Shown here in pieces: positions 24,927-33,132 of a DNA stretch of 64,000 nucleotides (position 1 is the first letter of the stretch; each line of letters opens with the position of its first letter). The position numbers and the translations under genes were made by a program. The stretch is from positions 892,001 through 956,000 of the forward strand of contig NZ_CP092333.1 of the NCBI RefSeq assembly GCF_018595675.2, written 5' to 3'. The stretch comes from Flavihumibacter fluvii (GTDB taxonomy: Bacteria > Bacteroidota > Bacteroidia > Chitinophagales > Chitinophagaceae). The notes below the pieces were generated by a model. The model saw nothing but the letters and a program-made list of their open reading frames with translations, made no database searches and was not told the origin of the DNA.

Positions 24927-25490
24927 GTGCATGACATTGAACCATTTTACAACTGGAGACACATTTATGTGAGTGAGGAAGATGAACGGTCGCCTTTCTA
25001 CGGCCGCATATACTCTGAATTCGAGTACTCCCAAACTATTTATAATTATTACATTCATCCGCAGTGGGATGAGTTTGGTTCCAGGACCCTTTACCTTAAA
25101 GTGATGATGGCAGATTATGAGGAAGGTTATGCCATCATTGAATTGCTGGGCGAATGGAATGATGCCATTGAGAATGACATTATGCAGTTGAAGCGTGAAG
25201 TAGTTGATAAATTCCAGGGGAATGGAATATATAAATTCATCTTTATCAGTGAGAATGTGCTGAATTTCCATAGTGGTGACCGCGATTATTATGAAGAATG
25301 GTATGAAGAAATGGCCGATGAGAATGGATGGGCAGTCTTGCTGAATATGCCGGTACAGACCCAGCATGATTTCAGAAAAGCAAAGCTGAACCGCTTTGTT
25401 GAATTGGTTGAATTAAGTAACTGGCGTACGTTTAAGCCCTATCACCTTTTCAGGAAAATTGATGAAGAACAACTTAAACGCCTGTCCTGA
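24927..25490 (+). CDS. Conserved hypothetical protein
   Basis: A 187-residue acidic, Tyr/Trp-rich soluble protein with no signal peptide or membrane helix; the family is not one I can name. It begins at a GTG at 24927, 35 bases after murQ; the reading frame before it contains no ATG, and the next in-frame ATG would remove about 60 conserved-looking residues. Blocks such as YNYYIHPQWDEFGS and FIFISENVLNF suggest an alpha/beta fold. Position suggests co-transcription with murQ, but it could equally be an independent housekeeping gene. Confidence 0.65.
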   Translation: MHDIEPFYNWRHIYVSEEDERSPFYGRIYSEFEYSQTIYNYYIHPQWDEFGSRTLYLKVMMADYEEGYAIIELLGEWNDAIENDIMQLKREVVDKFQGNGIYKFIFISENVLNFHSGDRDYYEEWYEEMADENGWAVLLNMPVQTQHDFRKAKLNRFVELVELSNWRTFKPYHLFRKIDEEQLKRLS

Positions 25491-25559
25491 TTGATAAAAA
25501 CTAACAATTGTAAGGAAAAAAACTTTTTTTCGTATGGTTTCATTCGTTAATTTTACTAA

Positions 25560-25655
25560 ATGATTAAAGCAAATGCTTTTAGCCGGTTTTATTTTTACTT
25601 CTACTTTTTTACAAGCAGGAGGCCGGCGATGCTTTGTGTTGGATCAACGAAATAA
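25560..25655 (+). CDS. Phe/Tyr-rich leader peptide of the aromatic operon
   Basis: An ATG-to-TAA open frame of 31 codons, too short for usual gene calling. Residues 7-17 read FSRFYFYFYFF, giving six Phe and three Tyr codons in eleven; the rest is unremarkable (TSRRPAMLCVGSTK follows). It lies 57 bases before pheA and is followed by a terminator hairpin. The arrangement matches the leader peptides of enterobacterial pheA and trp operons, in which ribosome stalling at scarce charged tRNA relieves termination. The mix of Phe and Tyr codons fits an operon that makes both. I see no close match to the Bacteroidota promoter upstream. That the peptide is translated is an inference. Confidence 0.8.
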   Translation: MIKANAFSRFYFYFYFFTSRRPAMLCVGSTK

Positions 25656-25704
25656 GATCACTAACAACTAACATAAAGAGTCCCGGCAGAAAGCCGGGAC
25701 TCTT
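25565..25704 (+). promoter_or_regulatory. Ribosome-dependent transcription attenuator upstream of pheA
   Basis: Hand pairing gives mutually exclusive helices. Region 1:2 pairs 25565-25571 with 25630-25636 and 25582-25588 with 25621-25627, enclosing the Phe/Tyr codons. Region 2:3, the antiterminator, pairs 25632-25642 with 25668-25678 over 11 continuous pairs (two G-U), plus three more outside one mismatch (25628-25630 with 25680-25682). Region 3:4 is the terminator at 25676-25704. A ribosome stalled on the Phe/Tyr codons would break 1:2 and allow 2:3. A ribosome at the stop codon (25653-25655) would cover the loop of 2:3 and allow termination. Energies were not calculated. Confidence 0.75.
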
Positions 25705-25711
25705 GCATTTT
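25676..25711 (+). terminator. Attenuator terminator hairpin before pheA
   Basis: A perfect 12-bp stem, AAGAGTCCCGGC (25676-25687) with GCCGGGACTCTT (25693-25704), over an AGAAA loop, then GCATTTT. The pheA start codon is at 25712, so the hairpin could also block ribosome entry if transcription reads through. Confidence 0.85.
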
Positions 25712-26539
25712 ATGGCAACAAGAGTATCAATACAAGGTTACGAAGGCAGTTTCCACCAGGTGGCTGCCCAGCAATTTTTTGGCAAGCAGGTGGAAGTAAT
25801 TCCCTGCGCTACTTTTCGCGAGGTAGTTAAAATCGCTGCCAATAAAAAGGAAAGTGAAGGTGGTGTAATGGCCATTGAAAACTCTATTGCGGGTAGTATT
25901 TTACCCAATTACAACCTTTTACAGAAAAGCAACCTGCGGGTGGTGGGTGAGGTGTACCTCCAGATCAAACAAAACCTTCTTGTTAATCCAGGGGTTCAAC
26001 TGGAAGACATCCGAGAGGTTCACTCACACCCCATGGCGATTCTGCAATGCATTGATTTCCTGGAAAAGTATGACTGGAAGCTGGTGGAAACTGAAGACAC
26101 TGCCCTCAGTGCAAAACATATCCACCAGAAAAGGCATAAGCATGCAGCAGCTATTGCCAGTAAGCTGGCCGCAGATTTATTTGATCTTGAAATTCTGGCT
26201 CCGAATATACATACCATGAAAAATAATTACACCCGCTTCCTGGTGCTGCAAAGGGCAGAGGTTGCTGAGGTTATCCCGGATGCCAATAAAGCCTCGGTAA
26301 ATTTCCACACTGATCATTCACGTGGCAGCCTGGCCAGGGTATTGAGCCGTATTGCTGAAGGTGGCATCAACCTGAGTAAACTGCAGAGTTTTCCTATTCC
26401 GGGAAGCGATTGGGAATATAGTTTTCATGCTGATATGGAATTTGAAACAATTGAACAATTCAATACCATAATTGATGCGATCAGGCCTCTGACTGCAGCT
26501 TTGCAGGTGTATGGTATTTATAAAAACGGCAGATTATGA
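25712..26539 (+). CDS. pheA: Prephenate dehydratase PheA
   Basis: A 275-residue enzyme converting prephenate to phenylpyruvate, the committed step to phenylalanine. The dehydratase domain (residues 1-180) shows GYEGSFHQ, AIENSIAGS and the catalytic TRF in NNYTRF. The C-terminal ACT domain (about 195-275) has the regulatory SLARVLSRIAEGGINLSKLQ segment, so Phe feedback is likely. The ATG at 25712 is chosen; an in-frame TTG at 25634 would start inside the leader and run through the terminator hairpin. Unlike E. coli PheA there is no fused chorismate mutase, which is instead on the DAHP synthase in this operon. Confidence 0.95.
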   Translation: MATRVSIQGYEGSFHQVAAQQFFGKQVEVIPCATFREVVKIAANKKESEGGVMAIENSIAGSILPNYNLLQKSNLRVVGEVYLQIKQNLLVNPGVQLEDIREVHSHPMAILQCIDFLEKYDWKLVETEDTALSAKHIHQKRHKHAAAIASKLAADLFDLEILAPNIHTMKNNYTRFLVLQRAEVAEVIPDANKASVNFHTDHSRGSLARVLSRIAEGGINLSKLQSFPIPGSDWEYSFHADMEFETIEQFNTIIDAIRPLTAALQVYGIYKNGRL

Positions 26540-27714
26540 AAATGGAAACAGCCAACAGACTGAATGGTATCGGCGAATATTATTTCTCGCAAAAACTGCG
26601 GGAAATTGACACACTGAACAAGGCCGGAAAGGCCATCATAAACCTGGGCATTGGTAGTCCGGATCTTCCGCCGCACCCTGATGTGATCAAAACCTTGCAG
26701 GAAGAGGCGGCAAAACCTACCGTACATGCATACCAAAATTATAAAGGCTCCCCCGTTCTGAGAAAGGCGATGAGTGACTGGTATGCTACCTGGTATGGTG
26801 TTAGCCTTGATCCGGAAACTGAAATTTTACCATTGATCGGTAGTAAAGAAGGCATCATGCATATCTGTATGACCTACCTGAATGATGGGGATGAAGTGTT
26901 GATCCCTAATCCGGGTTATCCTACCTACAGCAGTGCCGTAAAACTTGCCGGCGGTGTGGCAATTCCTTATGAAATGGTAGAAGCATTGAATTGGGAGCCG
27001 GATCTTGATGCACTTGCCAGCACTGATTTGTCCAGGGTTAAACTGATGTGGGTGAATTATCCCCATATGCCCACCGGGCAACTTCCTTCCAGGCAATTTT
27101 TTGAAAGGCTGGTGGCTTTTGGCCATACGCATGGGATACTGATCTGCCACGATAATCCGTATAGTTTTATTCTGAATGAGCACCCCGCCAGCCTGCTGTC
27201 GGTGGAAGGCGCAAAAGATGTGGTAATAGAACTGAATTCACTCAGCAAGAGCCATAATATGGCCGGATGGCGGGTTGGACTTCTGGCTGGTGCAAAAGAA
27301 AGGATCGACGAAATCATCCGCTTTAAAAGCAATATGGATAGCGGCATGTTTCTTCCTGTACAGCTGGCGGCTGCAAAAGCCCTTCAGCTGGGTAAGGAGT
27401 GGTACGACAGTGTGAATATCGTTTATGCCAGAAGGCGTGAACTGGTATTTGACCTGTTGCAGATGCTGGAATGTAGTTTCAGCCGTGAACAGGTAGGCAT
27501 GTTCGTTTGGGCGAAAGTTCCATCTACTTACACAGATGGTTATGCGCTAAGTGATGCAATCCTGTATAGTTCAAATGTATTTATTACACCAGGCGGAATT
27601 TTCGGCAGCGCTGGCAACGGATTCATCAGGGTTAGTTTATGTAGTCCGGAAGAAAAAATTAATCAGGCAATTGAACGTATTCGTGTATCTGTTCCTGTTA
27701 CTACAAACTTATAA
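26536..27714 (+). CDS. PLP-dependent aminotransferase, class I/II (aromatic or broad)
   Basis: A 392-residue fold-type I aminotransferase. It overlaps the pheA stop by four bases (ATGA). The PLP lysine sits in LSKSHNMAGWRVG, and other marks are NPGYPTY, NYPHMPTG and CHDNPYS. Its position between pheA and tyrA implies that it transaminates phenylpyruvate and 4-hydroxyphenylpyruvate to Phe and Tyr. The sequence also resembles LL-diaminopimelate aminotransferases, so a different or dual substrate is possible. Confidence 0.85.
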   Translation: MKMETANRLNGIGEYYFSQKLREIDTLNKAGKAIINLGIGSPDLPPHPDVIKTLQEEAAKPTVHAYQNYKGSPVLRKAMSDWYATWYGVSLDPETEILPLIGSKEGIMHICMTYLNDGDEVLIPNPGYPTYSSAVKLAGGVAIPYEMVEALNWEPDLDALASTDLSRVKLMWVNYPHMPTGQLPSRQFFERLVAFGHTHGILICHDNPYSFILNEHPASLLSVEGAKDVVIELNSLSKSHNMAGWRVGLLAGAKERIDEIIRFKSNMDSGMFLPVQLAAAKALQLGKEWYDSVNIVYARRRELVFDLLQMLECSFSREQVGMFVWAKVPSTYTDGYALSDAILYSSNVFITPGGIFGSAGNGFIRVSLCSPEEKINQAIERIRVSVPVTTNL

Positions 27715-27731
27715 GATAAGGAATTGACCGT

Positions 27732-28580
27732 ATGGAAAGGAAAAAAATAACCATAGTAGGTGTTGGATTGATCGGCGGATCGCTGGCCCTGCAATTGAAT
27801 GAAAAAGGAATGGCTGCGGGGATTATTGGCGTTGAAAGCAGCCTCTCACATGCCGCAAAGGCACTTGAATTAGGGCTGGTGGATGAGATACTGCCTTTGG
27901 AAGAAGCGGTAAAGCAGAGCGCAGTTATCGTCCTGGCCATACCTGTAGATAGGATGGTGGAGCTATTGCCAAAAGTGCTCGATCTCGTGGACCACCAGAT
28001 CGTGTTTGATGCAGGTTCTACCAAATCGCAATTGATCAGTCGCGTAAAGGACCATCCCAAAAGGGGCAGGTATGTTGCCACCCACCCTATGTGGGGGACA
28101 GAGTACAGTGGTCCGGAAGCTGCAGTGAAATCGGCTTTTGAAAATAAGGCGGTGGTAATCTGCAATGCAGGCGAAAGTGATGCGGATGCTGTGAACTGGG
28201 TAAAACTGGTCTATAAAAAAATAGGTATGCACTTATTGGAAATGGATGCTGTAGCCCATGATATTCATGCTGCTTATGTGAGCCATATTTCACACATCAC
28301 TTCATTTGCACTTGCCAATACTGTATTGGAAAAGGAACGGGAAGACCGGGCGATTTTCGAATTGGCCAGTGCGGGTTTCGAAAGTACGGTACGCCTTGCT
28401 AAAAGTAATTCAGCTATGTGGGTACCCATTTTCATGCAAAACCGTGATAATGTGCTGGATGTTTTAAACGAACATATCTCACAATTGAGAAAATTCAAAT
28501 CCTGCCTGGAAAAAGAGAATTATGAGTACCTGCAGGAACTGATAGAAAATGCGAATAGAATTGGGAAAATATTGAAGTAA
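27732..28580 (+). CDS. tyrA: Prephenate dehydrogenase TyrA
   Basis: A 282-residue NAD(P)-dependent enzyme that oxidatively decarboxylates prephenate to 4-hydroxyphenylpyruvate for tyrosine. The Rossmann motif GVGLIGGSLAL starts at residue 10; THPMWGTEYSGP and HDIHAAYVSHISHITSFALA are the substrate-binding and catalytic His region. No chorismate mutase or ACT domain is fused. It starts 17 bases after the aminotransferase gene. Confidence 0.93.
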   Translation: MERKKITIVGVGLIGGSLALQLNEKGMAAGIIGVESSLSHAAKALELGLVDEILPLEEAVKQSAVIVLAIPVDRMVELLPKVLDLVDHQIVFDAGSTKSQLISRVKDHPKRGRYVATHPMWGTEYSGPEAAVKSAFENKAVVICNAGESDADAVNWVKLVYKKIGMHLLEMDAVAHDIHAAYVSHISHITSFALANTVLEKEREDRAIFELASAGFESTVRLAKSNSAMWVPIFMQNRDNVLDVLNEHISQLRKFKSCLEKENYEYLQELIENANRIGKILK

Positions 28581-28685: not shown

Positions 28686-29777
28686 ATGCAAGCAACCGCA
28701 ACAAAAACAATGAAACAAGTAACCCAGGAAGCCTGGGCTAAACGCCCATTGATCATATCTGGGCCTTGTAGTGCTGAAACAGAGGAGCAGGTATTGGAAA
28801 CCGCCCAACGTCTCGCCAAAACCGGGAAAGTAGATGTGCTTAGGGCTGGAATCTGGAAACCCAGAACCCGTCCGGGATCATTTGAAGGTATTGGAACCAA
28901 AGGTTTACCCTGGTTGCAACAGGCCCGAAAATTGACCGGACTGCCCGTTGCAGTAGAAGTGGCAACCGCAAAACAAGTGGAAGATGCCCTCCATTTTGAT
29001 GTCGATATTTTATGGATCGGCGCCCGAACAACTGTAAATCCATTTAGCGTACAGGAAGTTGCTGATGCCCTACGGGGAGTTGATGTTCCGGTCCTGATCA
29101 AGAATCCGATCAACCCCGATCTTGAATTATGGTTAGGTGCAGTTGAACGCGTGGCTAAAGCCGGAATTAACCAGGTCGGATTGATCCATCGTGGATTTTC
29201 ATCCTATGGGAATACAGAATACCGTAACGCGCCAATGTGGCACCTGGCGATAGAAATGAAACGCCGCAATCCTGAACTTATGATCATTAATGATCCTTCG
29301 CATATCTGTGGTCGCCGTGATATCCTGCTGGATGTTATGCAAAAGGCAATTGACCTTGATTTCGACGGACTGATGATTGAAAGTCATATCGACCCGGATA
29401 ATGCATGGAGTGATGCCAAACAACAGGTGACACCTGAGAAACTGGCGGAAATGCTGGATGCCATTACCTGGAGAAAAGAAGATGTTGATTCTGAAGCCTA
29501 CCATGCTGCACTTGAGAAATTGCGTCAGCAGATCAATCACCTGGATGATGAACTTATGCAGATTCTTGGACAAAGAATGAAAGTGGCTGAACAGATTGGT
29601 ACTTATAAAAAGAACAATAGTATTACCATTTTGCAGACCAACCGCTGGAATGAAATCCTGGAACGTGCATTTGTAAAAGGCGATAAACTTGGCTTAAGTA
29701 AGGAATTCATCACCCGTTATTTTGATGCAGTACATATGGAAAGCATCAACCACCAGAATAAAGTCATGAACAGCTAA
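28686..29777 (+). CDS. Bifunctional DAHP synthase / chorismate mutase
   Basis: A 363-residue fusion. Residues about 1-265 are a type I-beta (KDO8P-synthase-like) DAHP synthase, with SGPCSAET, the GIWKPRTRPGSF phosphate-binding segment and NDPSHICGRRD. Residues about 275-363 are an AroQ-type chorismate mutase helical domain with LRQQINHLDDELMQILGQRM. It therefore catalyses the first step of the shikimate pathway and the conversion of chorismate to prephenate. This fusion is common in Bacteroidota and lets prephenate or chorismate feed back on the first step. The start is ATG 28686. Confidence 0.94.
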   Translation: MQATATKTMKQVTQEAWAKRPLIISGPCSAETEEQVLETAQRLAKTGKVDVLRAGIWKPRTRPGSFEGIGTKGLPWLQQARKLTGLPVAVEVATAKQVEDALHFDVDILWIGARTTVNPFSVQEVADALRGVDVPVLIKNPINPDLELWLGAVERVAKAGINQVGLIHRGFSSYGNTEYRNAPMWHLAIEMKRRNPELMIINDPSHICGRRDILLDVMQKAIDLDFDGLMIESHIDPDNAWSDAKQQVTPEKLAEMLDAITWRKEDVDSEAYHAALEKLRQQINHLDDELMQILGQRMKVAEQIGTYKKNNSITILQTNRWNEILERAFVKGDKLGLSKEFITRYFDAVHMESINHQNKVMNS

Positions 29778-29795: not shown

Positions 29796-30815
29796 ATGGA
29801 AACAAAAAAAATCAGGATTGGGCATTCGGTCACTGAATATCATTTCAGTGCCTCTTTGTCGAAGCTTAGCCAGGTTGCTGATAAGAAATATTCCGTTATC
29901 ATTACAGATGACCATATTTATTCGTTGCACCAAAAGCAGCTGAAAGGTTGGAATACAATTGTTTTGAAACCCGGAGAAGAATTCAAGGTCCAGCAAACTG
30001 CTGATGCTGTCATAGATACGCTGATAGAAATGGAAGCCGACCGGAAAACAACTTTGGTCGGAATTGGCGGCGGAGTGATTACAGACCTTACCGGTTATAT
30101 CGGTGCCGTGTATATGCGTGGCATAAAGGTTGGGTTTGTTCCAACCAGCCTCCTTGCCATGGTTGATGCTTCAATTGGTGGAAAAAATGGTATTGATGTG
30201 GGGGTATATAAAAACCTGGTGGGGATCATAAGGCAACCAGCTTTTTTACTATTTGATGTGGCATTACTGAAAACGCTTCCCGACGCAGAATGGCAAAATG
30301 GATTTGCAGAAATTATCAAGCATGCGTGTATTAAAGACGCAGCGATGTTTCGCGATTTGTCAAAGCATGACATCAAATGGTACCAGACAAAAAAATCAGA
30401 AATGGCATCACTTGTCCGCCGGAATGCTTTACTTAAAACCAAAGTAGTACAGGGTGATGAAACGGAACAAGGCGATCGTAAACTGCTGAACTACGGCCAT
30501 ACCCTGGGCCATGCGCTGGAGAACCAGTATGAGCTATCGCATGGGCAGGCAGTATCTATAGGTATGACCTATGCAGCCCACCTGTCTGCTTCCATCCTGA
30601 ATTTTAAGGGAACAGAGAAGGTTGTTGACCTGATCGCTCAATACCAGTTGCCAACGTATGCAAGTTTTGACCGGAAGAAAGTGTTTGATGTGCTGAAACA
30701 TGACAAGAAACGGGAAAGAGACCAGCTACATTATATTTTGCTGGATAAAATCGGCAAAGCTGTTGTGCACACACTTCCACTGCAGCAGGTAGCACAAATA
30801 ATTGAACAGTTATAA
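29796..30815 (+). CDS. aroB: 3-Dehydroquinate synthase AroB
   Basis: A 339-residue NAD- and metal-dependent enzyme that cyclises DAHP to 3-dehydroquinate, the second shikimate step. Family marks include VGIGGGVITDLTGYIGAVYM, VDASIGGKNGIDVG, and the metal-binding GHTLGHALE region. It follows the DAHP synthase gene by 18 bases, so consecutive enzymes are encoded side by side. Confidence 0.96.
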   Translation: METKKIRIGHSVTEYHFSASLSKLSQVADKKYSVIITDDHIYSLHQKQLKGWNTIVLKPGEEFKVQQTADAVIDTLIEMEADRKTTLVGIGGGVITDLTGYIGAVYMRGIKVGFVPTSLLAMVDASIGGKNGIDVGVYKNLVGIIRQPAFLLFDVALLKTLPDAEWQNGFAEIIKHACIKDAAMFRDLSKHDIKWYQTKKSEMASLVRRNALLKTKVVQGDETEQGDRKLLNYGHTLGHALENQYELSHGQAVSIGMTYAAHLSASILNFKGTEKVVDLIAQYQLPTYASFDRKKVFDVLKHDKKRERDQLHYILLDKIGKAVVHTLPLQQVAQIIEQL

Positions 30816-30830
30816 TGTTTTGAAAAACTT

Positions 30831-32108
30831 ATGATCGCAACAATACAGCCTTCCTCGCTAAATGGGGAAATTTATGCACCGGCTTCCAAAAGTTCCATGC
30901 AAAGAGCCTGTGCTGCAGCATTAGTTGCAGGAGGGACAACCATTATTATGAATCCCGGGCATTCCAATGATGATAAGGCCGCACTAGAGGTAATCCATGC
31001 CCTGGGTGCAACAGTTGAGCCTGGTGATCACCAGCTTGTAATCAGAAGTGGGGGAATCCATGCCCGTGCAAAGACAGTTAATTGTGGAGAAAGCGGATTG
31101 GGAATCCGGATGTTCACTCCACTAGTGGCCATGAATTCAGGTGAAATTTCAATTACCGGCGAGGGAAGCCTAGTGACACGGCCAATGGATTTTTTTGATA
31201 CGGTTTTACCGCAGGTAGGTGTTACCGTACAATCCAATGAAGGCCGGCTCCCACTTGTAGTGAAAGGTCCATTACAACCCCGTGATATTACAGTGGACGG
31301 TTCTTTAAGTTCACAATTCCTTACCGGTATCTTACTGGCTTATGCAGCGTCTGGTGCCAAAGATGTGACCATCACGGTGACAAACCTCAAGAGCAAGCCA
31401 TATGTAGACCTGACCCTTGCTGTGATGAAGGCGTTCGGATTACCTGTACCTGAAAACAGGGATTACAGTTCTTTTTATTTTAATAGTAATGGTTATACAC
31501 CGGATATAAATCTGCAGCGAAAGTATACTGTGGAAGGGGACTGGAGTGGCGGAGCATTTTTACTGGTAGCCGGCGCAATTGCAGGAAATATTGTTGTGAA
31601 AGGGTTGGATGTTTTTTCTACCCAGGCTGATAAGGCCATTTTGCAGGCACTGATCAGTTGTGGTGCAGGCATCAGCATCGAAGCCGATACTATTTCTTTG
31701 CGCCCAATGCGTTTAAAGGCATTTCAGTTCAATGCAACTGATTGCCCCGATCTTTTTCCACCATTAGTAGCACTGGCGGCTTATTGTGAAGGCACCACAG
31801 TAATTGAAGGAATTGGGCGGCTAGCGCATAAAGAAAGTGACCGCGCCCTCACTTTACAGGAAGAATTCAGGAAATTGGGACTGTGCATAGAATTGCAGGA
31901 TGATCTCATGCTGATCAAAGGCGGCGGCGGGCTTACCGGTGCAGCAGTTCATTCACGCCATGACCACAGGATTGCAATGGCTTGCGCAGTAGCAGCTTTG
32001 CGGGCAAGTGGCGAAACAACAATACATGATGCCGATGCGATCAACAAATCATATCCGGATTTTTTTAACCATCTTTCAAAATTGAATGCGGGCGTACAAT
32101 ACGCATAA
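30831..32108 (+). CDS. aroA: 3-Phosphoshikimate 1-carboxyvinyltransferase AroA (EPSP synthase)
   Basis: A 425-residue two-domain enzyme that joins PEP to shikimate 3-phosphate. Visible motifs are ASKSSMQRACAAALVA at the N-terminus, CGESGLGIRMFTPL, DGSLSSQFLTGIL and HDHRIAMACAVAAL near the C-terminus. It has the normal length and is separated from aroB by 15 bases. The genes for 3-dehydroquinate dehydratase, shikimate dehydrogenase and shikimate kinase are not in this window. Confidence 0.96.
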   Translation: MIATIQPSSLNGEIYAPASKSSMQRACAAALVAGGTTIIMNPGHSNDDKAALEVIHALGATVEPGDHQLVIRSGGIHARAKTVNCGESGLGIRMFTPLVAMNSGEISITGEGSLVTRPMDFFDTVLPQVGVTVQSNEGRLPLVVKGPLQPRDITVDGSLSSQFLTGILLAYAASGAKDVTITVTNLKSKPYVDLTLAVMKAFGLPVPENRDYSSFYFNSNGYTPDINLQRKYTVEGDWSGGAFLLVAGAIAGNIVVKGLDVFSTQADKAILQALISCGAGISIEADTISLRPMRLKAFQFNATDCPDLFPPLVALAAYCEGTTVIEGIGRLAHKESDRALTLQEEFRKLGLCIELQDDLMLIKGGGGLTGAAVHSRHDHRIAMACAVAALRASGETTIHDADAINKSYPDFFNHLSKLNAGVQYA

Positions 32109-32136: not shown

Positions 32137-33132
32137 ATGAACGCATTTGGAAAATTATTCAGGGTAACCATTTTTGGCGAATCGCATGGCCCGGCAGTTG
32201 GTGTGACGCTAGATGGGATTCCAGCCGGCCTGCCCATTTCTGCCGATGATTTTGTGACGGATATCGAAAGACGCAAAGGGGGAGTGCAGAAAGGGACAAC
32301 GCCTCGCAAAGAAGATGATACCCCGTTATTTCAGACTGGCCTGTTCAATGGCCATGCCACAGGGGCTCCCATGACTTTATTATTTGAGAACAAGAATACC
32401 CGTTCCGGAGATTATGAAAAGCAAAGATCAGTACCACGCCCGGGACATGCAGATTTTGTAGCTCACCGGAAATTTGGTGGCTTTGAAGATTTCAGGGGTG
32501 GCGGCCATTTTAGTGGCCGGCTTACTGTTTGCCTTGTTGGGGCAGGTGTAATTGCCAAAAAAATCATTTCACCCCTGCAAGTTAAAGCGACAATTCTTGA
32601 AATAGGTGGTGAGAAAGATCTTGAAGCCGGATTGCAAAAAGCCATCGATGCCAAAGATTCCATTGGAGGCGTAGTAGAATGCAGGGTGGGAGGCCTGCCG
32701 GCGGGTTTAGGAGAGCCATTTTTTGATTCCGTTGAATCTGTTTTGAGTCATGCTGTTTTTGCTATCCCGGCAGTTCGTGGTATTGAATTCGGAACTGGTT
32801 TTGAGGCTGCAAAGATGTTTGGCATTGACCATAATGATGCTATTGAAGACAATACAGGAAAAACGCGAACCAATCATGCTGGGGGAGTGGTAGGGGGTAT
32901 TTCAAACGGAAATGAACTGGTGTTCAGAATCGCGGTAAAACCAACTTCTTCCACACCAAAGGAGCAAACCACACTCAACTGGGAGACCGGTGAGCAGGAG
33001 GCGTTTTCAGTAAAAGGGAGGCATGACCTTTGCATTGCGCTTCGGGTTCCGGTTGTATTGGAGGCGGTTACGGCTTTGGTATTGGCCGATTTGATGATGC
33101 AGGCAAATTTAATTCCCCGCGTTATACAATAA
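32137..33132 (+). CDS. aroC: Chorismate synthase AroC
   Basis: A 331-residue FMN-dependent enzyme that makes chorismate from EPSP. The N-terminal GESHGPAVGVTLDGIPAG and the central SVPRPGHADFVAHRKFG and FRGGGHFSGRLT motifs are diagnostic, as is the later GGISNGNELVFRIAVKPTSS. It is a little shorter than the E. coli enzyme (361 residues) but appears complete. It is the last aromatic pathway gene of the operon. Confidence 0.96.
   Translation: MNAFGKLFRVTIFGESHGPAVGVTLDGIPAGLPISADDFVTDIERRKGGVQKGTTPRKEDDTPLFQTGLFNGHATGAPMTLLFENKNTRSGDYEKQRSVPRPGHADFVAHRKFGGFEDFRGGGHFSGRLTVCLVGAGVIAKKIISPLQVKATILEIGGEKDLEAGLQKAIDAKDSIGGVVECRVGGLPAGLGEPFFDSVESVLSHAVFAIPAVRGIEFGTGFEAAKMFGIDHNDAIEDNTGKTRTNHAGGVVGGISNGNELVFRIAVKPTSSTPKEQTTLNWETGEQEAFSVKGRHDLCIALRVPVVLEAVTALVLADLMMQANLIPRVIQ

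Follow-up and report, generated by a model that had tools for sequence, protein, structure and literature searches.

What governs transcription of the aromatic amino acid genes of Flavihumibacter fluvii? In the 5.0-Mb, single-contig genome of this bacterium, a leader and a terminator precede a seven-gene operon for chorismate, phenylalanine, and tyrosine synthesis, with all genes on the forward strand and intergenic gaps of −4 to 105 nt. The window analyzed here is the whole 64,000-nt stretch from positions 892,001 to 956,000 of contig NZ_CP092333.1, and the features of the locus are collected in Table 1. Sequence and comparison with relatives give us high confidence that this leader is a ribosome-mediated transcription attenuator, predicted to sense charged tRNA-Phe and tRNA-Tyr and to control the whole operon from chorismate to the two amino acids.

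Table 1. Features of the leader and operon in the window (position 1 is the first base of the window).
Feature	Coordinates	Strand	Basis or remarks
Predicted −7 promoter box TAATTTTA, 5/6 to TAnnTTTG, 4 nt before leader ATG	25548-25555	+	Sequence; family conservation
Leader peptide ORF, 31 codons plus TAA, MIKANAFSRFYFYFYFFTSRRPAMLCVGSTK	25560-25655	+	F/Y leader in 91/91 usable family upstreams
Control codons, residues 7-17, FSRFYFYFYFF (6 Phe, 3 Tyr)	25578-25610	+	6-11 F/Y codons in run in all 91 family leaders
Segment 1, two stretches able to pair with segment 2 (1:2 helix)	25565-25588	+	Weak covariation
Segment 2, within leader ORF, 3′ of control codons	25622-25642	+	
Segment 3, pairs with segment 2 over 19 pairs (antiterminator); 3′ portion is terminator 5′ arm	25668-25687	+	Covariation
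3:4 terminator hairpin, 12 pairs, loop AGAAA, then GCATTTT	25676-25704	+	Covariation
pheA, prephenate dehydratase	25712-26539	+	PF00800; ATG at 25712
Class I/II aminotransferase	26536-27714	+	PF00155; 4-nt overlap with pheA
tyrA, prephenate dehydrogenase	27732-28580	+	PF02153, PF20463
DAHP synthase-chorismate mutase fusion	28686-29777	+	PF00793 + PF01817
aroB, 3-dehydroquinate synthase	29796-30815	+	
aroA, EPSP synthase	30831-32108	+	
aroC, chorismate synthase	32137-33132	+	

An initial annotation of this DNA had described a 31-codon ORF ahead of pheA, with a run of codons for the end products of the operon, and three helices paired by hand. The ORF is present with its run at residues 7 to 17, and every helix was recovered base by base. 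The 1:2 helix joins 25565-25571 to 25630-25636 (7 pairs, one G-U) and 25582-25588 to 25621-25627 (7 pairs, two G-U). The 2:3 antiterminator joins 25632-25642 to 25668-25678 (11 pairs, two G-U) and 25628-25630 to 25680-25682 (3 pairs, one G-U), and the perfect terminator, 25676-25687 with 25693-25704, has 12 Watson-Crick pairs (−23.1 kcal/mol for the hairpin) and ends 7 nt before pheA. The antiterminator is stronger than first noted: 25622-25626 (GCCGG) also pairs with 25683-25687 (CCGGC), which brings it to 19 pairs. It takes up the GC-rich 5′ arm of the terminator, so that 2:3 and 3:4 are predicted to be mutually exclusive, and it lies in a segment passed by a ribosome that finishes the leader peptide. 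The leader in the window folds 5.0 standard deviations lower in energy than the average of 200 shuffles, and no shuffle reaches its stability (0/200). The T-run behind the hairpin is modest and is longer in many relatives.

Searches with PheA gave 110 family loci, made up of 30 from one family genome search (drawn from 133 family places found) and the best 80 of 171 relatives, among which the closest are Flavihumibacter species at 91% identity. Removal of 17 duplicates (by the last 150 nt) left 93, and two with less than 100 nt upstream were set aside, leaving 91 usable loci. A Phe/Tyr leader (at least 5 F/Y in 10 residues) was found upstream of pheA in all 91, bearing out the search of relatives that the initial annotation had proposed. 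An ATG-started ORF with at least 7 F/Y in 10 occurs in 87/91; the corresponding frequency is 0.2% for shuffled upstreams and 0.5% for 730 pieces drawn at random from these loci. The control run consists chiefly of TTT, TTC, TAT, and TAC codons. Behind the leader, all 91 upstreams carry a hairpin of 9 to 18 pairs, which by its sequence is a predicted intrinsic terminator (at least 9 pairs) separating the leader ORF from the first gene.

The position of this hairpin also bears on translational attenuation, in which it would chiefly hide the pheA start region until a stalled leader ribosome opened it. Such a mechanism would fit the 7-nt spacing to the pheA ATG in the window and the distances of 17 nt or less between stem and pheA in 50 of the 91 relatives, but in 27/91 over 60 nt separate the hairpin from the aligned pheA start, in 89/91 the hairpin is followed by T-rich sequence (5 T or more among 11 scored bases), and in five genomes the leader-hairpin element precedes genes other than pheA. 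We regard this explanation as improbable and favor termination of transcription.

The second half of the leader is conserved in a manner different from the control run. The core of segment 2 is not fixed relative to the leader frame: 72 leaders have it in phase 0, 11 in phase 2, and 8 in phase 1 (this group including partly ambiguous matches), and similar segment 2 nucleotides yield differing C-termini, such as RPGMLLL or SRVVFAK. This suggests that segment 2 is kept as RNA and the F/Y run as codons. Peptide homology was considered as the cause of the conserved second half and was rejected, since the frame of segment 2 differs among leaders.

Covariation was counted in 77 of the 91 leaders, near-identical ones being left out. 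In the 2:3 helix, 86.7% of the cells are paired and 46 are double-change cells, against a shuffled mean of 15.3 (reached by 0/500 shuffles), and sliding the helix by 1 to 3 columns leaves 26.6 to 55.3% paired. Both sides have changed in 7 of its 14 pairs (reached by 2/500 shuffles); two slid registers also show 7 such pairs, with far fewer paired cells. Further pair types in the 77 leaders were not above shuffles (101/500 reach the count). The 3:4 helix has 95.5% of its cells paired and 46 double-change cells against 5.7 in shuffles (0/500 reach this), and both sides have changed in 6 of 9 pairs (again 0/500). Compensatory examples include segment 2 CCGGAG(G) opposite C(C)TCCGG in the terminator arm (L026 and L028) and GTATTTGC-like segments opposite GCA(A)TAC-like ones (L016, L060, and L085). 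When segments were swapped, independently of any alignment, among 26 representatives of the 91, the cognate 2:3 sums beat all 5,000 permutations (0/5,000), and 28/5,000 reached the cognate sum for 1:2. The initial annotation had proposed looking for compensatory changes in all three helices. They are found in 2:3 and 3:4, but 1:2 covaries only weakly: its score is reached by 7/500 shuffles and its count of pairs changed on both sides by 88/500, and in three slid registers the number of such pairs is equal or higher and double-change cells are more numerous than in the true register. The 1:2 helix forms readily only if the RNA stops after segment 2 (89/91 leaders). Judged from these comparisons, it is weakly supported and is the weakest part of the model.

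Beyond this set, F/Y leaders (at least 6 in 10) precede pheA in 54 of the 60 additional family loci, in 29 of the 45 loci examined from other families of the order (of 50 non-family places found), and in 17 of the 27 class-level loci (of 49 places outside the family), with shuffles at about 1%; the 60 were not de-duplicated against the first 93 and hold at least one repeat (L112 is L100), and L226 of the class set is the same place as L195. No leader was found upstream of pheA in 4/60 additional family loci and 15/45 order loci. Among the family pheA loci, L182 has an odd leader, and none was found at L183, L184, and L143, the last being one of two pheA copies. Outside the family the peptides are dissimilar apart from their F/Y richness (e.g., MNNTFFYGYYFFRT or MKAGYVFFSFYFFYYPKQ). 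Antiterminator-like pairing (z < −2 versus shuffled segment 2), scored only at loci with at least 6 F/Y in 10, is present in 51/54 leader-positive family loci, 14/29 order loci, and 13/17 class loci. Thus, by sequence, the attenuator architecture is clear in the family and mostly so among the class loci, whereas for the order loci it is only half confirmed.

The presence of the ORF in 91/91 family loci could also be explained by a conserved small protein with its own function and an ordinary terminator-like hairpin behind it. We consider this extremely improbable, as the C-terminus changes frame while the nucleotides stay, the peptides of other families in the order share little but F/Y richness, segment 2 covaries with the terminator arm, and no NCBIfam match was found for the peptide.

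Folding in the presence of a ribosome is consistent with attenuation of transcription. With the ribosome stalled in the run, as the initial annotation had suggested modeling it, 2:3 (at least 6 expected pairs) is predicted in the nascent RNA of 90/91 family leaders; in the window, a stall at codon 10 or 14 gives the 19-pair helix, and at codon 17 one pair is lost. With the ribosome at the stop codon, 3:4 is predicted in 91/91 full leaders, and the terminator forms in the full leader of the window. The stop codon had been described as placed so that a terminating ribosome covers the loop of 2:3. With a ribosome at that position, 2:3 nevertheless keeps at least 6 pairs in the nascent RNA of 72/91.

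Equilibrium folding also points to the importance of timing. With segment 3 present and no ribosome, 1:2 has at least 6 pairs in 2/91 leaders and 2:3 in 88/91. Because 2:3 is thus the favored helix at equilibrium, RNA that is not translated would have to terminate under kinetic control; we infer a role for 1:2 in such RNA. When the ribosome is stalled and the RNA is full-length, 3:4 still has 6 or more expected pairs in 73/91 leaders and 2:3 in 53/91, which suggests that antitermination too relies on the order of synthesis. The full leader of the window likewise makes the terminator with a ribosome stalled at codon 14, so that antitermination would depend on 2:3 forming before segment 4 is synthesized.

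The start of the transcript can be predicted from a promoter element. The sigma-A −7 box of Flavobacterium psychrophilum is given as TAnnTTTG, at −12 to −5 (PMC9723704), and we scored this consensus within 22 nt upstream of the leader start. A box matching at least 5/6 lies 4 to 10 nt before the leader in 88/91 family loci (6/6 in 73), against 106/910 control stretches, and a box at the same distance was found in 39/54 further family loci, 14/29 of the order set, and 3/17 of the class set. This spacing predicts a 5′ untranslated part of 0 to 6 nt, and of 0 in the window (start at 25560), which makes a leaderless or nearly leaderless mRNA probable. The lower frequency of the box in the order and class sets suggests that the leaderless trait may be special to the family of Flavihumibacter. 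So short a 5′ part is rare: leaderless transcripts are put at 5.5% in F. psychrophilum (PMC9723704), and 5′ parts of less than 10 nt at about 3.7% in Bacteroides thetaiotaomicron (PMC7366714). A 187-codon ORF with a GTG start (24927-25490) and no Pfam match lies directly upstream of the predicted promoter, and a resembling sequence was seen by eye upstream of the leader at three other loci (L031, L012, and L025).

Taken together, the proposed attenuator would operate as follows. RNA polymerase would begin on the leader AUG or only a few bases from it, and a ribosome would load on the 5′ end without a Shine-Dalgarno site. When Phe or Tyr is scarce, the ribosome would stall in the FYFYFYFF run and leave segment 2 free downstream; segment 2 would then pair with the emerging segment 3, locking the 5′ arm of the terminator and allowing polymerase to enter pheA. 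When both amino acids are ample, the ribosome would pass segment 2 to the stop codon in the 2:3 loop and disfavor 2:3, and 3:4 would form and stop transcription just before pheA. The initial annotation had recognized here the logic of the enterobacterial pheA and trp attenuators, which is supported by the leader and terminator in 91/91 loci and by the 2:3 and 3:4 helices. A wider extension, toward which we remain tentative and somewhat doubtful, is that the Bacteroidia, lacking Shine-Dalgarno sites, may run their own class of leaderless attenuators. The AUG would be the transcription start, the ribosome would board the 5′ end as soon as it emerged, and initiation on the leader would be tied to promoter escape; mixed Phe/Tyr leaders would integrate two end products on one switch and specialize to Phe or Tyr when the branches split.

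Rearranged operons provide natural tests of codon specificity. A covariance model of the antiterminator found one convincing place in the F. fluvii genome (E of 7e-16; the next two, 2 and 6.9). Among 195 family genomes it gave a single place in each of 122; compared by eye, 117 adjoin pheA and 5 lie elsewhere. The five precede aminotransferase-tyrA (G049 and G074), tyrA (G016 and G068), and DAHP synthase-chorismate mutase (G157), as identified by BLAST with the proteins of the window (57 to 80% identity). In G049, pheA sits behind another gene, and a search there gave no F/Y leader. The leader before tyrA in G068, a genome without a PheA match at E 1e-30, contains six Tyr and no Phe (MTQYSKYYYWYYLNRITG). 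The converse is seen in G135, with pheA and tyrA on different contigs and a Phe-only leader before pheA (MNKKSKTFRFRFFNCFLFKKK); having 5, not 6, F/Y in 10, it fell outside the codon-share statistic. In that statistic, which rests on small numbers of leaders related by descent, with the 146 pheA leaders not de-duplicated and the G157 leader (5 Phe, 4 Tyr; before DAHP synthase) left out, the F share is lower in the four Tyr-branch leaders than in the 146 pheA leaders (Mann-Whitney P = 0.0008), and Y exceeds F in 3/4 versus 12/146 (Fisher P = 0.003). These comparisons argue for a shift of codons with the Tyr branch. Of the 195 family genomes, 63 gave no match to PheA (E 1e-30) and 62 none to TyrA (E 1e-20); many of these are nearly complete, and loss of Phe/Tyr synthesis is possible in them.

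Comparable leaders precede other amino acid operons of the same genome. Upstream of hisG is a His leader (MKQFTQQHHHHFLPSR) whose ATG is preceded, at a distance of 8 nt, by a −7 box, and the hairpin behind the leader is by eye terminator-like. Of 75 family hisG loci found, 30 were examined, and 29 of these have a His leader, compared with 1.3% of shuffles. Also by eye, a GC-rich hairpin and a T-run follow both a Trp leader before trpE (MNMNLNNLQWWWHTNSSGVL) and an Ile/Val-rich ORF of uncertain start codon, ending ITIIIVVVLVIPVIHGGG, before the branched-chain operon ilvE-ilvD. In the extracted loci, these three leaders lie upstream of position 1348 (hisG, L243), 889 (trpE, L245), and 485 (ilvE-ilvD, L246). 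The aspartokinase-homoserine dehydrogenase gene has a Thr-rich leader with a GTG start (MAKILSYQSISSFGASASTTTTITTTTTR, containing TTTTITTTTT, at 375-464 of locus L250) and, by eye, a weak terminator. A riboswitch or protein-bound leader that senses Phe or Tyr directly, with an incidental ORF, would suit a structured leader ahead of a biosynthetic operon that matches no Rfam family at the gathering score, but it is hardly credible given the in-frame F/Y codons in 91/91 leaders, a codon content that tracks the pathway branch in the few cases seen, and the His codons before hisG in 29/30 relatives.

The attenuator was finally compared with systems already described. An Rfam scan of the window at the gathering score gave no match, and a permissive scan of 25400-25800 (E up to 10) gave 14, all far below gathering. 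Only one is relevant, the Phe_leader family RF01859, which aligns to 25572-25708 with 17 bits (E of 2.7), against a gathering score of 55 bits that places the leader outside that family. The enterobacterial pheA leader represented by RF01859 combines Phe codons in a short leader ORF, a terminator before pheA, and an alternative antiterminator, all of which have counterparts here. It differs from the present leader, in which Tyr codons are mixed in, the start is predicted to be leaderless, and the operon includes tyrA, DAHP synthase-chorismate mutase, and aroBAC. The trpL attenuator of Sinorhizobium meliloti, also a leader-peptide attenuator, reportedly starts directly at its AUG as well, and differs in its Trp codons and its alphaproteobacterial host.

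Within the phylum, the Bacteroid-trp RNA motif (RF01692) was tabulated as a candidate motif for Bacteroidetes by Weinberg et al. in 2010 (PMC2864571), and its name suggests trp genes. It did not match the window at the gathering score, nor was it among the 14 permissive matches in 25400-25800, and four other operon loci of the genome likewise gave no match to it with E up to 0.1. The trpE leader matched no Rfam family at that cutoff. Short ORFs reminiscent of leader peptides are mentioned in B. thetaiotaomicron (PMC7366714). The initial annotation knew of no described case in this lineage. For the Chitinophagaceae, our searches of an open-access library likewise showed none, but a hint exists in the Flavobacteriaceae: the F. 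psychrophilum transcriptome of 2021 speaks of "strong clues" of leader-peptide attenuation before amino acid operons, and of unclassified structured elements before pheA and hisG that are present in other Flavobacteriaceae and have no Rfam matches (PMC9723704). That pheA element precedes the same gene in the same phylum, and the main-text sections on it give no leader sequence, helices, or survey beyond the family (PMC9723704).

Collectively, the finding is real and its mechanism very likely, of a kind known from enterobacterial pheA and trp and already hinted at in the phylum. The features that seem new are how widely it occurs, the covariation, the control by two amino acids in which codons shift with the pathway branch, and the probable leaderless start, which raises the question of how polymerase and ribosome stay in step without Shine-Dalgarno initiation. 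The locus thus offers a fully specified, testable amino acid attenuator in the Bacteroidota, one in which the enterobacterial logic would recur at a score far under the cutoff of the Phe leader family and a single leader would read two amino acids.
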